This document shows, piece after piece, positions 34,442 to 57,557 of a DNA stretch of 64,000 nt. The position numbers and the translations under genes are program-made. This DNA comes from Bacteroidota bacterium (GTDB taxonomy: Bacteria > Bacteroidota > Bacteroidia > Sphingobacteriales > Sphingobacteriaceae), in contig JABDGE010000008.1 of NCBI GenBank assembly GCA_013286235.1, forward strand, positions 1 through 64,000, written 5' to 3'. A model generated the notes under the pieces. It worked only from the letters and a program-made list of their open reading frames with translations, ran no database searches and had not been told where the DNA came from. How positions within the stretch are numbered: the stretch's first letter is position 1; every line of letters begins with the position of its first letter.

Positions 34442-35107
34442 ATGAGTAAAATGGAAACAGAACCGGCATTAGGTACCGTCCAATCAAACTCCCCCGCTGG
34501 CCAGCGGGGGCCGGGGGGCATTGGCATCATCACTTACGGCGCGGGGAACATATTCTCGTTGACGGCGGCTTTGGAACGCTTACAGATCCCCTATGGCATG
34601 ATAACGTCTGAAGCTGATTTTGCCCATTATAGCCGTTACATCATTCCGGGTGTCGGCCATGCAGGCGCTGCCATGACCAAGCTGTCACAGACGGGACTTA
34701 TACCGGCCATAAAGTCGTTAACAAAACCAACGCTGGGCATTTGTGTGGGTATGCAGCTGCTTACGTCGTACTCGGAAGAAGGAAACTCCGACCTTTTGGA
34801 TATCATCCCGGTTAAAACTTTAAAGTTTGCAAACGAACACGGCTACAAGGTGCCCCATACAGGCTGGAACAGGGTGTTCCCTGAAAAGGATAACCCGCTT
34901 TTTGAAAATATCCCGCACGGTTCACACTTTTACTTTGTACATTCATACTTTATTGAGCACAGCAATACATTCACTTTATCGTCAACCACTTACAGCAATA
35001 AATTTTCGGCATCAATTTGGCGGGATAATTTTTATGGTGTGCAATTTCACCCCGAAAAGTCAGGCGCTTATGGAGAGATGCTACTAAAGAATTTTTCAAA
35101 AATATAA
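34442..35107 (+). CDS. hisH: imidazole glycerol phosphate synthase glutaminase subunit, with palindrome-derived N-terminus
   Basis: HisH releases ammonia from glutamine for HisF. The amidotransferase triad is visible in GICVGMQLL (Cys) and VQFHPEKSG (His, Glu). The first 26 residues do not belong to the family. Residues 16-26 (SNSPAGQRGPG and one more Gly) are encoded by a GC-rich palindrome (34487-34520), and the canonical sequence resumes at I27 (IGIITYGAGN). Gly26 stands where the initiator Met should be, so translation must begin upstream at the ATG at 34442 or 34451. The body of the enzyme is intact, so I expect it to be active. Confidence 0.9.
   Translation: MSKMETEPALGTVQSNSPAGQRGPGGIGIITYGAGNIFSLTAALERLQIPYGMITSEADFAHYSRYIIPGVGHAGAAMTKLSQTGLIPAIKSLTKPTLGICVGMQLLTSYSEEGNSDLLDIIPVKTLKFANEHGYKVPHTGWNRVFPEKDNPLFENIPHGSHFYFVHSYFIEHSNTFTLSSTTYSNKFSASIWRDNFYGVQFHPEKSGAYGEMLLKNFSKI
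34487..34520 (+). repeat. GC-rich palindromic element inside hisH
   Basis: The core CCCCCGCTGGCCAGCGGGGG (34491-34510) is a perfect 20-bp palindrome, followed by CCGGGGGG. It has the same orientation as the copy at the hisF junction (36265-36298), and like it ends in GGC directly before codon 2 of the host gene. Confidence 0.9.
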
Positions 35108-35864: not shown

Positions 35865-36298
35865 GCCCCCTAACCCCCGCTGGCTGGCGGGGGAACTATA
35901 GTTGCATATGAAGAAGCGAATGTTTATGGGCGCGGATCGCTTGATATTCCAAAATGCTGCAGATCTTAGAAATCACATGACGCAGGCAGAAATGTTGCTT
36001 TGGGGTCATTTAAAGGGAGGGCAACTTGGCGCAAAATTCCGAAGGCGGCATCCACTGGGAATTTACATTGCGGATTTCTATTGTCATCAATATAAAGTTG
36101 TTATTGAGGTCGACGGCACAATCCATAATCTTCCCGATGTTGCCGAAAACGATATTCGTCGCCAGCTTTCTATCGAAAAAGATGGCATCAAAGTCCTCAG
36201 ATTTGCTAACGAAGATATATTCAACAATATAGAAAGAGTGTTATCTACAATTAAAAACGAATTAAGCTCCCCCGCTGGCCAGCGGGGGCGGGGGGGCC
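35865..36298. mobile_element. putative palindrome-flanked DUF559 nuclease cassette
   Basis: The left end (35865-35897) reads CCCCCTAACCCCCGC followed by TGGCTGGCGGGGG. The right end (36265-36298) reads CTCCCCCGCTGGCCAGCGGG, then more G. Each end is itself a palindrome (core 35874-35893 and 36269-36288), and the outer G/C runs show that they lie in inverted orientation, like terminal inverted repeats of about 33 bp. Between them is a single DUF559 nuclease frame. The cassette separates hisA from hisF and its right edge falls exactly on the hisF start codon. I see no target-site duplication. Confidence 0.65.
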
Positions 36299-37053
36299 TG
36301 AGTAAGCGAATAATTCCATGTCTCGACGTTAAGGACGGGCGCACCGTAAAAGGCGTCAACTTCGTCGACTTACGTGATGCCGGCGATCCGGCAGAGCTCG
36401 CATGGAATTATTCACAGCAGGGAGCTGACGAATTGGTGTTTCTTGATATTACTGCTACGCACGAGCGCCGCAAAACGATGATCGAATTGGTAAAAGCGGT
36501 TGCCAGGCAGGTAAATATCCCGTTCACTATAGGCGGGGGCATTAACGAAATAGGCGATGCCGATGCCCTTTTAAACGCGGGCGCCGATAAAATATCGATA
36601 AATTCGGCCGCGGTACGGAATCCTGCTTTGATAGATGAGCTGGCAAGGGCCTTCGGCGTTCAGTTTGTGGTGATCGCGGTGGACACCAGGCGGGCAGAAG
36701 GGAAAAACATTGTTCACTTGAATGGTGGCCGCATACCGACCGAAAAGGAGACCATGGATTGGATTTTGGAGGCCGAAAGCCGGGGTGCAGGGGAGATCCT
36801 GCTCACTTCGATGGATCATGACGGCACAAAGGGTGGGTTTGATACGGCGTTTTTAAAGGAAGTAAACGATGCTGTAAATATCCCGGTAATCGCATCGGGA
36901 GGGGCCGGTAACGTGCAGCATTTTGTAGATGTATTTCAACAGAGTAACGTCGACGCAGCCCTGGCCGCCTCGGTGTTTCATTATGGCGAGATATTGATCC
37001 CCGATCTAAAACGTATTCTAAAACAAAATCAAATCGAAGTACGGGAAGTTTAA
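35908..37053 (+). CDS. hisF: DUF559 nuclease domain fused in frame to HisF cyclase
   Basis: With the ATG at 35908 the product has 381 residues (a TTG at 35902 would add two). Residues 8-117 form a DUF559/Vsr-like nuclease domain with TQAEMLLW (Glu28), [16 protein letters not shown] (Asp56) and [10 protein letters not shown] (Glu67, Asp69). Residues 119-130 ([12 protein letters not shown]) are encoded by the palindrome. HisF starts at L131 with [14 protein letters not shown] and contains the catalytic Asp140 and the later AVDTRR. HisF cyclises PRFAR with ammonia from HisH. The hisF initiator ATG is absent (GGC in its place), so HisF can only be made as the fusion unless CTG at 36298 initiates. 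Confidence 0.9.
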
Positions 37054-54263: not shown

Positions 54264-54275
54264 ATTGCCGGATTG

Positions 54276-54357
54276 AAACTTACGAAGTTTAATTCGGAGT
54301 TGTTTGTTTTTCAAAGGCCTCATTGAGGGCTGGGCCGTTTAAAAACTTCGTAAGTTT
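54276..54357 (-). repeat. long REP-like element (82 bp), followed by T tract
   Basis: AAACTTACGAAGTTT (54276-54290) and AAACTTCGTAAGTTT (54343-54357) are inverted arms. Inside is AGCCCTCAATGAGG on the minus strand (54318-54331). In reverse it matches the element at 41202-41280. It follows yidC and runs into a T tract, so it may also terminate the yidC transcript. Confidence 0.75.
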
Positions 54358-54360
54358 TTT

Positions 54361-54402
54361 TTCTCTGTGCCCTCTGTGCCTCCTCCGTGCTCTCTGCGGC
54401 TA
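54361..54402 (-). repeat. GCACAGAGGG / CACGGAGGAGGC repeat
   Basis: On the minus strand this reads AGAGCACGGAGGAGGCACAG followed by AGGGCACAGAG, the same family as the copies at 24405-24481 and 25137-25211, in opposite orientation. Confidence 0.5.
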
Positions 54403-54526
54403 AACTCTGCATATGTCCCTTCGGTTTGTCCTCAGAAACTCCTGCATATGTTCTCTCGGTTACTCTCCACAAACATCTTTCAATTCCAACTAAAATAATT
54501 AGCAAAAAGTATTTATATTTACAGCG

Positions 54527-55891
54527 ATGTATGCGATTGTAGATATAGAAACGACGGGGGGGCATGCCAGCGCTAACGGCATTACCGAGATAGCGATATG
54601 CATACATAACGGCAAAAAAGTTATTGAGCGTTACTCCACGCTGGTAAACCCCGAACGGGATATCCCAATCTATATCAGCGCCCTCACCGGCATCACCAAC
54701 GACATGGTGAAAGACGCGCCGCCGTTTGCGGACGTGGCGCACGATATTTATCACCTGCTGAACAATAAGATATTTGTAGCCCATAATGTAAACTTCGATC
54801 ATTCTTTTGTTCGATACCATCTCGCTGCGGCGGGCTACGAGCTGCAATGCAATAAATTGTGTACCGTAAGGTTGGGGCGGAAAATATTACCCGGTCTCCC
54901 CTCCTATGGCCTTGGAAAGTTGTGCCGGCACCTTGGCATTGAAAACGAGAGCCGCCACCGCGCAGCCGGCGACGCTGAAGCAACGGCGATATTGTTCTCC
55001 ATGTTGTTGCAGCAGGACAAGGAAAATCATATTCAGCAGGCGCTAAAACAGAATTCGAAAGAGCAGGTCTTGCCGCCGAACCTGCCAAAACAGGATGTGG
55101 ATAGCCTGCCCATGACGCCGGGCGTTTATTACTTTCATGATGATAAGGGCAAAGTAATTTATGTTGGAAAGGCAAAAAACCTTAAGAAACGGATCTGCAG
55201 TCATTTTACGGGCAATAATCCCGGCCCGCAACGGCAGGAGTTTTTAAGGAATATTCACCATATCACCTACCAGTTGTGCGGCACGGAGTTGATTGCTTTT
55301 GTGCTGGAGTCGGTAGAGATCAAAAGGCTTTGGCCGAAGTATAACCGGTCGTTAAAGCGATTCGAACATGCCTACAGCTTGTATGCCTTTGAAGACCAGC
55401 GTGGGTACCTGCGCCTTGTGGTAGATAAACACCGCAAAATGACCGGCGCTATTTATAGTTGCAATACGCTTTACGAGGGCAGGACGATTTTGCTGCAGTT
55501 GATTGACAATTATGGGCTTTGCCCCAAACTGTGTTTTATACAAACCAATACGGAAGCCTGTACCGGCATAAACGGGGGCACCTGCGCTTGCGAAGGGATT
55601 GAATCGCCCGAAATTTATAATGCAAAGGTTAACGCCGCTATTGAAGAATTACAAAACGCCCTGCCCACTTTTGCCATTCGCGATGCCGGCCGGACAGCCG
55701 ATGAGCATAGCTGCCTGCTGGTAGAAAAAGGCAAATTTTATGGTATGGGCTATATCTCCCACTATTTCGACGTCGACAACCTCCAGCAACTTAAAAATCA
55801 TCTTACGCCATACCCCGGCAACGATTATATACGGAGCATGGTAGCGGGCTATGCAACCCGCTTCCCTGAACGGAAAGTAGTGTTCGCGTGA
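54527..55891 (+). CDS. DnaQ-like exonuclease fused to a GIY-YIG (Cho/UvrC-N) nuclease
   Basis: The 454-residue protein has a DEDD exonuclease domain (1-170; VDIETTGG with Asp6 and Glu8, FVAHNVNFDHSF, HRAAGDAEAT) and a GIY-YIG domain (about 192-280; MTPGVYYFHDDKGKVIYVGKAKNLKKRI) like the N-terminus of UvrC and Cho. A C-terminal region of about 170 residues follows, with CPKLCFIQ and a Cys-rich CTGINGGTCAC. This DnaQ-Cho fusion is known in several phyla and is thought to act in nucleotide excision repair. A 263-bp gap with repeats lies upstream. Confidence 0.85.
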   Translation: MYAIVDIETTGGHASANGITEIAICIHNGKKVIERYSTLVNPERDIPIYISALTGITNDMVKDAPPFADVAHDIYHLLNNKIFVAHNVNFDHSFVRYHLAAAGYELQCNKLCTVRLGRKILPGLPSYGLGKLCRHLGIENESRHRAAGDAEATAILFSMLLQQDKENHIQQALKQNSKEQVLPPNLPKQDVDSLPMTPGVYYFHDDKGKVIYVGKAKNLKKRICSHFTGNNPGPQRQEFLRNIHHITYQLCGTELIAFVLESVEIKRLWPKYNRSLKRFEHAYSLYAFEDQRGYLRLVVDKHRKMTGAIYSCNTLYEGRTILLQLIDNYGLCPKLCFIQTNTEACTGINGGTCACEGIESPEIYNAKVNAAIEELQNALPTFAIRDAGRTADEHSCLLVEKGKFYGMGYISHYFDVDNLQQLKNHLTPYPGNDYIRSMVAGYATRFPERKVVFA

Positions 55892-55898
55892 CCGAATT

Positions 55899-55933
55899 AA
55901 AACTTACGAAGTTTTGAAAACTTCGTAAGTTTT
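55899..55933. repeat. short REP hairpin upstream of the REP transposase
   Basis: AAAACTTACGAAGTTTT (55899-55915), one base, then AAAACTTCGTAAGTTTT (55917-55933) form a perfect palindrome, ending 16 bases before the transposase ATG. It has the same arms as the elements at 54276-54357 and 57512-57544. Confidence 0.8.
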
Positions 55934-55949
55934 CACGTATTTTTAATAG

Positions 55950-56495
55950 ATGAAAATTTACGCTGACACGTACTATCACATTTACAACCGTGGCAATAAT
56001 AAAGACCTGATCTTTTTTGAAGATGAGAACTATCGCTATTTTCTCAATCAGTTTAAGAAATTCGTTGCTCCGTTTTGTGACGTTTATGCTTATTGCCTTA
56101 TGCCTAATCATTTCCATTTTTTTCTAAGAGTGAATGATGAGCCGCTTTTTGAGAAAGGAATAAAAAACTTCTTTATTTCCTACGCAAAAGCCATAAACAA
56201 AAAATATAATCGAGTGGGGAGTTTATTTCAAGGCAGATACAAAGTCTCTGAAATAACTTCCGAAAGTTATTTTACACGAATAATCACTTATATCCATCAA
56301 AATCCTGTTGTCGCAGGGCTTGTTAAAAACATGGAGGATTATAAATACTCGTCTTATGCCGCCTATTTGTCGAACAAAGAAACTTTGATAAACAAACAAG
56401 GCGTTTTAGATTGGTTTGGTGGATTGGATGGATTTATTGATGATCATAAAATACCGGCGGAAGAAAGGGAAATTGAGAAATATTTAAAAATTTAG
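55950..56495 (+). CDS. REP-associated Y1 transposase (RAYT / TnpA-REP)
   Basis: The 181-residue protein has the Y1_Tnp fold of IS200-like transposases: the N-terminal YYHIYNRGNNKDLIFFEDENY, the HUH motif MPNHFHFF (His54, His56) and the tyrosine in FFISYAKAIN (Tyr78), then RVGSLFQGRYK and ITYIHQNPVVAG. RAYTs process REP hairpins and are domesticated, single-copy relatives of IS200/IS605. Matching hairpins lie 16 bases upstream, 1.0 kb downstream and 1.6 kb upstream. The gene is intact. Confidence 0.9.
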   Translation: MKIYADTYYHIYNRGNNKDLIFFEDENYRYFLNQFKKFVAPFCDVYAYCLMPNHFHFFLRVNDEPLFEKGIKNFFISYAKAINKKYNRVGSLFQGRYKVSEITSESYFTRIITYIHQNPVVAGLVKNMEDYKYSSYAAYLSNKETLINKQGVLDWFGGLDGFIDDHKIPAEEREIEKYLKI

Positions 56496-56551
56496 GCTAA
56501 TATGATTCTAAAATCAAAACACGCAAAACTATAAGTAAAACAAGAGTTCAA

Positions 56552-57439
56552 TTACAAGTTATTGAACCATTCATTTTTTACTATTACCGTTTCAGTTAAT
56601 TTTGTATCAATGCCAAGTTTCAGTTCTCTCAACTTATCACAAAGTAGTTCCCCATCAATGAGATCAATCGGCGGCGCGCCATCTCTGGTTGCTTCTTTAA
56701 TTGCCTCTCTTGTAAATGTTCCTGTAGTTATAACAAGCCCTTTATCTGCCCGCCCCTGCATAGCTCCTCTAAAGTCCCTTATTTGACTGGGTGTAACGGA
56801 CCCCTTGTAACGCTTACATTGAAAAATTACATGAAAGCTCAAAAGCCCACTTACCCTTACAATCCCTTTTCCATCGATACCACCATCACCAACCTTTCCC
56901 GTCACCTCTACCTGAAAAAAGCCACTTTCCCGTAAAAGTCTTTGTGCGAGTCTTTCAAAAGCGGCTGGCGTTATATTATAAAGAATATTTAGAAGCTGTT
57001 CTTTCCATTCTTCCGAATCATCTACTTCATCTTGAATCTCATGTTCAATTTGATCGTTCGTTACAACCGTTTTTTTAACTTGGGACTTTGCGTCGTTATT
57101 TAGTTTTTTTACGGTTTTTACAATTTCAGAATAGTCAAGTTTAGATGTGTCAATATCTGATTTAGATAGTGCCCAAATTCCACGCGACGAATTTTCAAGA
57201 AGCCCAAATTTTTTAAGGTATGTTCTACTCCAGGCAAGTCGATATTCGACCTCGCTCATTGTTCCTTCCTCACCATGAGGTATTTGTAAAATATCATCAG
57301 GAAGTTTAACAATCTCAAAAACTTTGTTGTTTATTTCTTCAATTGTTCCTGAGCCTCCTAATTTAATAAGAGCCTCAACTGTAGGGACTATGAGTTCATC
57401 ATAGGAAGGTAGATTACTTATCGATTTTTTTCTTCCCAT
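56552..57439 (-). CDS. mrr: Mrr-type restriction endonuclease
   Basis: The 295-residue protein has an N-terminal winged-helix DNA-binding domain (about 10-100; LGGSGTIEEINNKVFE, EVEYRLAWSRTYLKKFGLL, SRGIWALS) and a C-terminal Mrr_cat domain with AFERLAQRLLRESGF, the PD-(D/E)xK site VGDGGIDGKG...FQCKRYKGS, and RDFRGAMQGRADKGLVITTGTFT. Mrr cuts methylated foreign DNA. No methyltransferase is adjacent, as expected for a modification-dependent nuclease. It lies between the REP transposase and a REP hairpin. Confidence 0.9.
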   Translation of the reverse strand: MGRKKSISNLPSYDELIVPTVEALIKLGGSGTIEEINNKVFEIVKLPDDILQIPHGEEGTMSEVEYRLAWSRTYLKKFGLLENSSRGIWALSKSDIDTSKLDYSEIVKTVKKLNNDAKSQVKKTVVTNDQIEHEIQDEVDDSEEWKEQLLNILYNITPAAFERLAQRLLRESGFFQVEVTGKVGDGGIDGKGIVRVSGLLSFHVIFQCKRYKGSVTPSQIRDFRGAMQGRADKGLVITTGTFTREAIKEATRDGAPPIDLIDGELLCDKLRELKLGIDTKLTETVIVKNEWFNNL

Positions 57440-57511
57440 CGGTTTAAGGTCAAAGATTAAACGTCCAAATTAGTGATTATTCTTTGTAATTAAGTTATCA
57501 AAATTACCATC

Positions 57512-57544
57512 AGACTTACGAAGTTTTAAAAACTTCGTAAGTCT
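57512..57544. repeat. short REP hairpin between mrr and the next minus-strand gene
   Basis: AGACTTACGAAGTTTT (57512-57527) is followed, after a short A loop, by AAACTTCGTAAGTCT (57530-57544). It has the same arms as the hairpin before the transposase and is positioned after the 57558 stop, where it could help terminate transcription. Confidence 0.8.
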
Positions 57545-57557
57545 TTCTCGGACACCC

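Follow-up and report, generated by a model that had tools for sequence, protein, structure and literature searches.

Palindrome-ended DUF559 nuclease genes in frame with host genes of Bacteroidota: probable non-splicing, homing-like elements with captured start codons at hisH and hisF

In a 64,000-nucleotide stretch of a Bacteroidota draft genome (hereafter the window; contig 8 of an assembly of 4.31 Mb that is 65% complete), a GC-rich palindrome stands where the initiator codon of hisH would be expected, and another copy stands in the corresponding place at hisF. The genome is probably that of a Mucilaginibacter, to judge from named Mucilaginibacter rows that lie among rows of its genus in the quick nuclease tree described below. 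The locus raises the question of how a palindrome comes to be translated at the very start of two genes, and of what this palindrome is a part. A sequence-only reading of the window had proposed that an element replaces the initiator codon in both genes with the frame kept, and our analysis agrees; it had overlooked that the hisF copy is one end of a nuclease-coding element, of which the hisH copy looks like the reduced form. We propose that non-splicing, in-frame, homing-like elements probably captured the start codon at hisH and hisF. We are surer of the anatomy of the element than of this reading as a whole, and we give homing in the strict sense about an even chance. The element appears to be small, nuclease-coding and probably mobile, and lies in the frame of its host with no sign of splicing out. 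Its in-frame architecture, the occurrence of empty, solo, mini and full states at a single site, the invariance of its acidic residues, the purifying selection on it and its changes of host site can all be read from the compared sequences.

Palindromes at the starts of hisH and hisF

The palindrome at hisH is, as had been claimed, real, in the frame of the gene and adjacent to codon 2. Its perfect 20-bp core spans 34491-34510, its tail reaches 34519, and the frame passes from it directly into ATT GGC ATC (IGII). The copy before hisF (core 36269-36288) has the same orientation and the same codon 2 junction, again in accordance with the earlier claim, and it closes a full element (35865-36297) in which a left palindrome and a DUF559 nuclease are followed by a palindrome in inverted orientation. 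This last palindrome joins HisF codon 2 in frame, and nuclease, palindrome and HisF constitute a single open frame (Table 1). Because the match to the HisH model TIGR01855 starts at residue 27 of the 221-aa ORF, HisH has 26 extra residues when counted from the first ATG (34442), the extension previously described; judged from the ATGs in relatives, a start at the second ATG (34451), with 23 extra residues, is more likely.

Table 1. Features of the hisH and hisF junctions in the window
Feature	Position	Strand	Remark
Leader giving hisH its start codons	34442..34488	+	ATG 34442 or 34451
Right-end palindrome at hisH, CTCCCCCGCTGGCCAGCGGGGGCCGGGGGGC	34489..34519	+	Read as SPAGQRGPGG; adjoins HisH codon 2 (ATT 34520)
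hisH ORF with N-terminal extension	34442..35107	+	TIGR01855 match from residue 27
Left-end palindrome of full element, GCCCCCTAACCCCCGCTGGCTGGCGGGGGA	35865..35894	-	Core 35874-35893; 3 bp past hisA stop
ORF nuclease - right palindrome - HisF, stop-free	35902..37053	+	First ATG 35908; 383 codons
DUF559 nuclease domain (PF04480; predicted Vsr/I-Bth0305I-like fold)	35950..36264	+	
Right-end palindrome of full element	36267..36297	+	Translated; adjoins HisF codon 2 (CTG 36298)
hisF without its own initiator codon	36298..37053	+	TIGR00735 match

Chance or GC bias can be discarded as the origin of the palindromes: two matches to the pattern C5-N3..10-G5-NN-G6 are present in the window but none in 100 Markov shuffles, and the genome contains 34 copies of it versus none of a reversed control pattern.

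Comparison of 30 hisH loci (own included) reveals a plain ATG before codon 2 in 18 and its absence in the other 12, all of which are extended. A GC-rich palindrome of varying sequence occupies the junction in ten of these 12 (own included; that of L013 is degraded). The sequence-only reading had held that the same extension in palindrome-free relatives would speak against insertion, and the comparison favours insertion. In the nine other GC-palindrome loci the loops are TTTA, TTCA or TTTTCA, unlike the loop in the window. By reading, eight of these nine have an inverted left palindrome at the hisB end of the gap, starting at the hisB stop codon or a few bases from it, and a short stretch between the palindromes with an ATG in the leader of the hisH frame; at that end L030, the remaining locus, shows no more than a degenerate GC-rich stretch. 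The two remaining extended loci are L017, with a different small palindrome, and L029, with no recognisable palindrome; since the leader of the latter resembles that of L030, it is probably an eroded copy.

By its position, the hisH leader in the window (34442..34488) matches the interior of relatives' mini-elements. It contains no recognisable left palindrome, and no nuclease was seen at hisH itself in any of the 30 loci. The inverted left copy in eight of the nine other GC-palindrome loci makes the hisH copy look like a remnant. It represents the right end of an element that is present in full at a distance of 1.3 kb, and it is best read as a derivative with no nuclease, in which the right end and a start codon are all that is left. 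Other palindromic repeats, of the CAAGAATC..GATTCTTG type and GGCAGTTT-like, occupy the hisB-hisH gap with the hisH ATG intact (L002, L003, L005, L008-L010, L012, L019, L020, L022, L023, L026-L028), and some of these types recur in frame in the loop at LeuRS site 1 described below.

At hisF, 29 of the 30 loci could be compared (L027 gave none): 13 have a plain ATG, nine an intact fused nuclease, and seven remnants or broken nucleases. None of these seven has an ATG at hisF codon 1; in L025 there is one six codons upstream. In L003, L013, L021 and L028 the nuclease before hisF is broken by a stop or an apparent frameshift, and hisF is likewise devoid of ATG at codon 1. A dead nuclease thus does not bring back the start codon, a state that would deserve the name of "start-codon capture". 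The insertions at hisH and hisF may each represent one old event inherited in the genus rather than many hits.

A census of 29 of the 34 copies in the genome gives the following picture. Thirteen have no frame of at least 75 codons leading to the palindrome or starting out from it. Another three lie within an open frame that continues through them, at hisH, at hisF and towards the N-terminus of an Anthrone_oxy-like protein (L260), for which the single close orthologue found (L372) offers no empty site. In five (L236, L240, L242, L243, L251) a gene stops inside the palindrome or a few codons beyond it and so gains a C-terminal extension, the genes concerned encoding a SpoU methylase, a patatin, a glutamine cyclotransferase, HemE and a dicarboxylate symporter. 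A further two lie immediately upstream of genes that keep their ATG (L231, L255), and six touch long frames (L233, L237, L239, L245, L246, L257), of which that of L233 matched no Pfam family. With the palindrome found in frame within ORFs, the likeness to Rickettsia palindromic elements, to which the earlier reading had pointed, proves a good lead.

Relatives' hisH and hisF copies mostly have TTTA or TTCA loops. The exact pattern CCCCCGCTNGCNNGCGGGGG, which fits both copies in the window, is present in only one of 59 other genomes, and ten of the 34 own copies have extended loops like those at hisH and hisF; on these grounds, copies appear to have been exchanged or renewed within this genome. 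A local type seems to have served as the source from which both his copies were renewed, by steps that kept the frame.

The DUF559 nuclease and its host proteins

Of 60 genomes, that of the window among them, 49 encode DUF559; its weakest matches lie in helicase-like proteins that are not such elements. By reading, the free-standing copies mostly lie between inverted palindromes of clade-specific sequence. As a narrow GC-palindrome pattern missed 19 of 86 DUF559 copies, an inverted-repeat test was used instead: an exact inverted repeat of at least 10 nt flanks 25 of 33 free, 34 of 52 embedded and 46 of 79 named loci, compared with 17 of 300 places chosen at random; for one embedded copy and one named locus the flanking sequence was too short.

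Many DUF559 copies lie in very long open frames, where Pfam finds host proteins split around the domain or joined to it. The nuclease is encoded in the host's own frame, and as this frame continues without a stop across the palindromes into the host sequence, nuclease and host would be made as one polypeptide. In Bacteroidota, about 25 host proteins share the palindrome-nuclease-palindrome architecture in frame, and most of them are represented by one to five loci: LeuRS (at two sites), IcmF, HisF, IleRS, ValRS, RecG, RecJ, UvrA, Lhr, MetH, TruB, guanylate kinase, chorismate synthase, acetyl-CoA synthetase, IspF (YgbB), RdgB (Ham1), an amino-acid kinase, a DegT aminotransferase, Epimerase_2, GH31, a CoA transferase, a SpoIIE phosphatase, HsdR, an AAA helicase and an SpvB/RHS protein. 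The identity of IleRS and some site labels are presumed from motifs beside the Pfam class I synthetase models. One host taken at some point for NrdA is in fact IcmF.

In a scan based on aligned embedded nucleases, the best 80 of at least 549 confirmed relatives were all Bacteroidota by record title (an assignment that, for some of them, we take to be correct), and 58 of these 80 have at least 100 residues beside the domain, on one side, in the same stop-to-stop frame. In a sample of the phylum, DUF559 matches at E 1e-15 occur in 125 of 296 genomes, and at least 32 matches, among the matches listed, lie in frames of more than 800 codons, as judged by frame length only. Embedded copies are found in the named isolates Pedobacter sp. 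Leaf194, Winogradskyella sediminis, Flavobacterium difficile and Cellulophaga baltica. An intron or an intein was considered and dropped: no intein (Hint) domain was detected at E 1e-5 in 37 Pfam-scanned proteins, and no group I or II intron family reached the gathering score in eight scanned stretches, the two RNA-family matches in that scan (a SAM riboswitch and Flavo-1) being outside the elements.

The nuclease of the window, modelled with 31 relatives (mean pLDDT 79.6), is predicted to have the catalytic fold of the Vsr/I-Bth0305I type. The model matches an endonuclease-like protein (PDB 3hrl, E 8.6e-8) and the catalytic domain of I-Bth0305I (3r3p, E 3.5e-4), with a weaker match to Vsr (1vsr), and the sequence profile matches 3r3p at E 2.6e-7. 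Alignment columns D53, E65, D67, H71 and D81 are at 1.00 in 86 rows; the histidine is merely near-invariant once the named loci join the alignment. As judged from sequence divergence, the nuclease is under purifying selection: dN/dS is 0.03-0.13 in nine of ten pairs, those with finite dS.

In a tree of 86 domains, 39 embedded copies form one clade (97/95 support) without a free-standing member; the hisF group and the embedded copies of HsdR and RHS fall outside it. A quick tree of 107 domains in frames of at least 250 codons, calculated from few columns, places 105 of them in 27 host sites (two are unassigned). The host-site labels require 36 changes on this tree versus a minimum of 27, and its starred branches require that the label LeuRS site 2 was gained or lost at least three times and LeuRS site 1 at least twice. 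On this evidence nuclease lineages have changed host site, in a direction that the quick tree does not give. Nucleases often cluster by genus, so much of the pattern may be vertical.

Homing predicts a sharp synonymous drop at the nuclease and its flank, and such a drop is seen as predicted in some of the pairs compared. A sliding scan, made after the first dS values were known and on pairs that are close rows of the tree, covered eight of ten pairs, leaving out one that is saturated and the window's own hisF pair, which is nearly so. In three of the eight, synonymous divergence dips at the nuclease and at least one flank (windows of equal size that are as low: 0/82, 0/77 and 1/79), with 0.030 versus 0.215 in IcmF (L124/L125), 0.465 versus 0.764 in LeuRS (L223/L227) and 0.172 versus 0.376 for L221/L229. 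The other five have no clear dip, with 14/71, 18/78, 22/75, 51/78 and 71/96 windows as low.

At LeuRS site 2, at IcmF, at hisH and at hisF, the same site is empty in some relatives and filled in others. Among 30 loci from the family, LeuRS site 2 (before YEYELSTMPGW) has seven solo right palindromes, one mini form with both ends, one ambiguous case (L160) and 21 empty or nearly empty sites; full nuclease copies stand there in six further loci (L072, L076, L079, L080, L224, L225). All seven solo copies are right ends in one orientation, as at hisH. The IcmF site is filled in five of 30 loci and empty in 25. No convincing target-site duplication and no base-exact pair of empty and filled alleles was found by eye at LeuRS site 1 and IcmF. 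The empty IcmF site often reads GGTGAG, like the right end of the element, which is possibly microhomology. In L071, L077, L078 and L123 several palindromes stand in a row around the IcmF nuclease, which suggests repeated insertion of palindromes into or beside older ones. The variable loop at LeuRS site 1 (before VFTTR) accommodates palindromic peptides of unrelated kinds too; in L151, L154, L156 and L163 such small palindromic or repetitive peptides, e.g. RISDFEFRNSDKSEIENSKSDF, which differ between species, mark a hot spot for in-frame repeats that have no nuclease. An AlphaFold model of a nuclease-bearing LeuRS (mean pLDDT 69, 20 rows) is too weak to argue from; its low-confidence stretches on either side of the nuclease are consistent with linkers.

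Proposed mechanism and rival explanations

According to our proposal, the complete element consists of a left palindrome, a single DUF559 nuclease ORF and an inverted right palindrome. The nuclease would cut or nick empty alleles (or extruded hairpins), and repair would copy the element, palindromes included, into the cut allele, which amounts to homing. The only insertions to survive would be those that are open in frame and situated in tolerant loops, termini or gene gaps, and their palindromes would turn into linkers. At the tight hisB-hisH and hisA-hisF junctions, the element would have displaced the initiator codon and supplied its own, so that clean loss would cost the gene its start, and such capture would favour retention even once the nuclease is dead. 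It is tempting to extend this scheme to a whole class of selfish elements across the phylum: nuclease genes with palindromic ends that home in frame and without splicing into essential genes (those of aminoacyl-tRNA synthetases, of recombination and repair and of central metabolism) and are translated, via palindrome-encoded linkers, together with the host enzyme. Start codons captured at operon junctions would make the host gene dependent on the element, and the many solo palindromes, in-frame or intergenic, would be its fossils. In our estimate, this extended scheme could equally well prove right or wrong.

The strongest rival, which we nevertheless regard as unlikely, is that palindromes and nuclease are both passive, i.e. 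that the palindromes are MITE- or REP-like repeats moved by an unrelated transposase (e.g. RAYT), the nuclease is a passenger, and the in-frame cases are mere survivors. Y1 transposases are indeed present in 37 of 41 genomes of the genus, with flanking inverted repeats of at least 10 nt at 11 of 30 Y1 genes; nuclease-less palindromes far outnumber nucleases (34 versus one in the incomplete genome studied here), and both the hisB-hisH gap and the LeuRS loop are also occupied by palindromes of other types. However, a GC palindrome of the tested patterns lies within 250 bp on either side of only one of 30 Y1 genes, versus 67 of 86 DUF559 copies and 302 of 2000 random places, and RAYT, not being associated with GC palindromes at these 30 loci, was rejected as the mover. 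The paired palindromes of most free-standing DUF559 genes, which by reading differ from clade to clade, also speak against a passive passenger, as do the invariant acidic residues and the purifying selection. The window itself contains a Y1_Tnp match (55965-56303, E 1.2e-8, in the region 54268-57546) among AAACTTCGTAAGTTT palindromic repeats; repeats and transposase together constitute a REP-like system with no relation to the GC palindromes.

Purifying selection on the nuclease and the grouping by genus in several cases would also be expected if the nuclease-host fusions were functional ones, fixed for the benefit of the host in regulation or defence. Such an origin seems very improbable to us, given about 25 hosts with no shared function, patchy presence between close relatives, and the persistence of solo, mini and dead copies. 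PADLOC matches are weak as well: mREase_II matches the nuclease of the window at E 6e-4, mad8 matches a part of IcmF outside the nuclease, and L269 has no match at all.

To specific targeting of initiator codons, which the sequence-only reading had suggested from the exact codon 2 junction, repeated at hisH and hisF in many species, we assign a smaller chance still. Elements of the same kind are found in the middle of genes (LeuRS, IcmF, RecG, UvrA), towards a C-terminus (TruB) and in intergenic positions. At the two his junctions the whole gap to the upstream gene is taken up by the element, which therefore necessarily meets the start codon, and each of the two insertions may be one inherited event. 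Least probable of all is an artefact, with ATT as the true start of HisH or the palindrome as a hairpin that is not translated, in a misassembled draft: although the genome is 65% complete and N-terminal REPs may be extragenic through misannotation, according to the accessible part of one report (PMC3733652), the same geometry with different palindromes recurs in nine other of the 30 hisH loci, embedded copies exist in named isolates, and the inserts in LeuRS, IcmF and RecG lie mid-gene and cannot be start-site errors, those in LeuRS and IcmF ruling out start-site misannotation as a general answer.

Significance and relation to known systems

The nuclease domains appear to persist within the LeuRS, IleRS, ValRS, RecG or UvrA protein. 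If our preferred reading of homing-like, non-splicing elements is true, it describes a new route for selfish DNA into important genes, by which proteins gain linkers and domains; it provides in-frame palindromes with a candidate mobilising enzyme, and it suggests a role for DUF559, a Pfam family still of "unknown function". LeuRS or HisF "fusions" of this kind would then be annotated as parasites rather than as bifunctional enzymes. In the literature within our reach, mostly outside subscription journals, we found no report of in-frame DUF559 elements in genes, and comparison with the P. gingivalis MITE, as far as the accessible part of its report goes (PMC4596501), gave no lead.

One of the closest parallels is the ShiLan domain of phage methylases (PMC11855218, from the portion available), likewise a stop-free in-frame insertion for which no splicing apparatus was found, with homing-like spread and a hidden nuclease. 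There, the nuclease is of the HNH type and out of frame, the hosts are phage methylases, and the accessible text does not mention palindromic ends, whereas here the nuclease is Vsr/EDxHD-like, lies in the frame of the host and occurs in about 25 bacterial proteins. With the EDxHD homing endonuclease I-Bth0305I (3r3p; PMC3943268, in the part available), the elements share the catalytic-domain fold, the profile match and the choice of conserved sites in conserved genes. However, I-Bth0305I is a mobile intron protein by its PDB name and no intron or intein was found here, and the DUF559 domain, of about 104 aa, is without the long DNA-binding regions described for I-Bth0305I in that part.

In the REP/RAYT system (REPtron), as presented in the accessible part of PMC3733652, the gene of a DNA-processing enzyme also lies between inverted palindromes that exist in many solo or paired copies besides. 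RAYT is, according to the same source, an HUH tyrosine transposase and its REPs bear a GTAG tag, neither of which holds here; by reading, the GTAG/CGTC tag and its complement are absent from 34489-34519 and 36267-36297. The Rickettsia palindromic elements (PMC10969869, PMC3733652, in the parts available) are also small and in frame in protein-coding genes, and a TruB gene serves as host to both; we compare them by their description rather than by their sequence. The accessible accounts do not mention a nuclease gene in these elements, unlike the elements described here, the complete copies of which encode a nuclease and the solo and mini forms of which look like derivatives. If solo palindromes are indeed fossils of nuclease-coding elements, this may also hint at the origin of nuclease-less in-frame palindromes such as those in Rickettsia.
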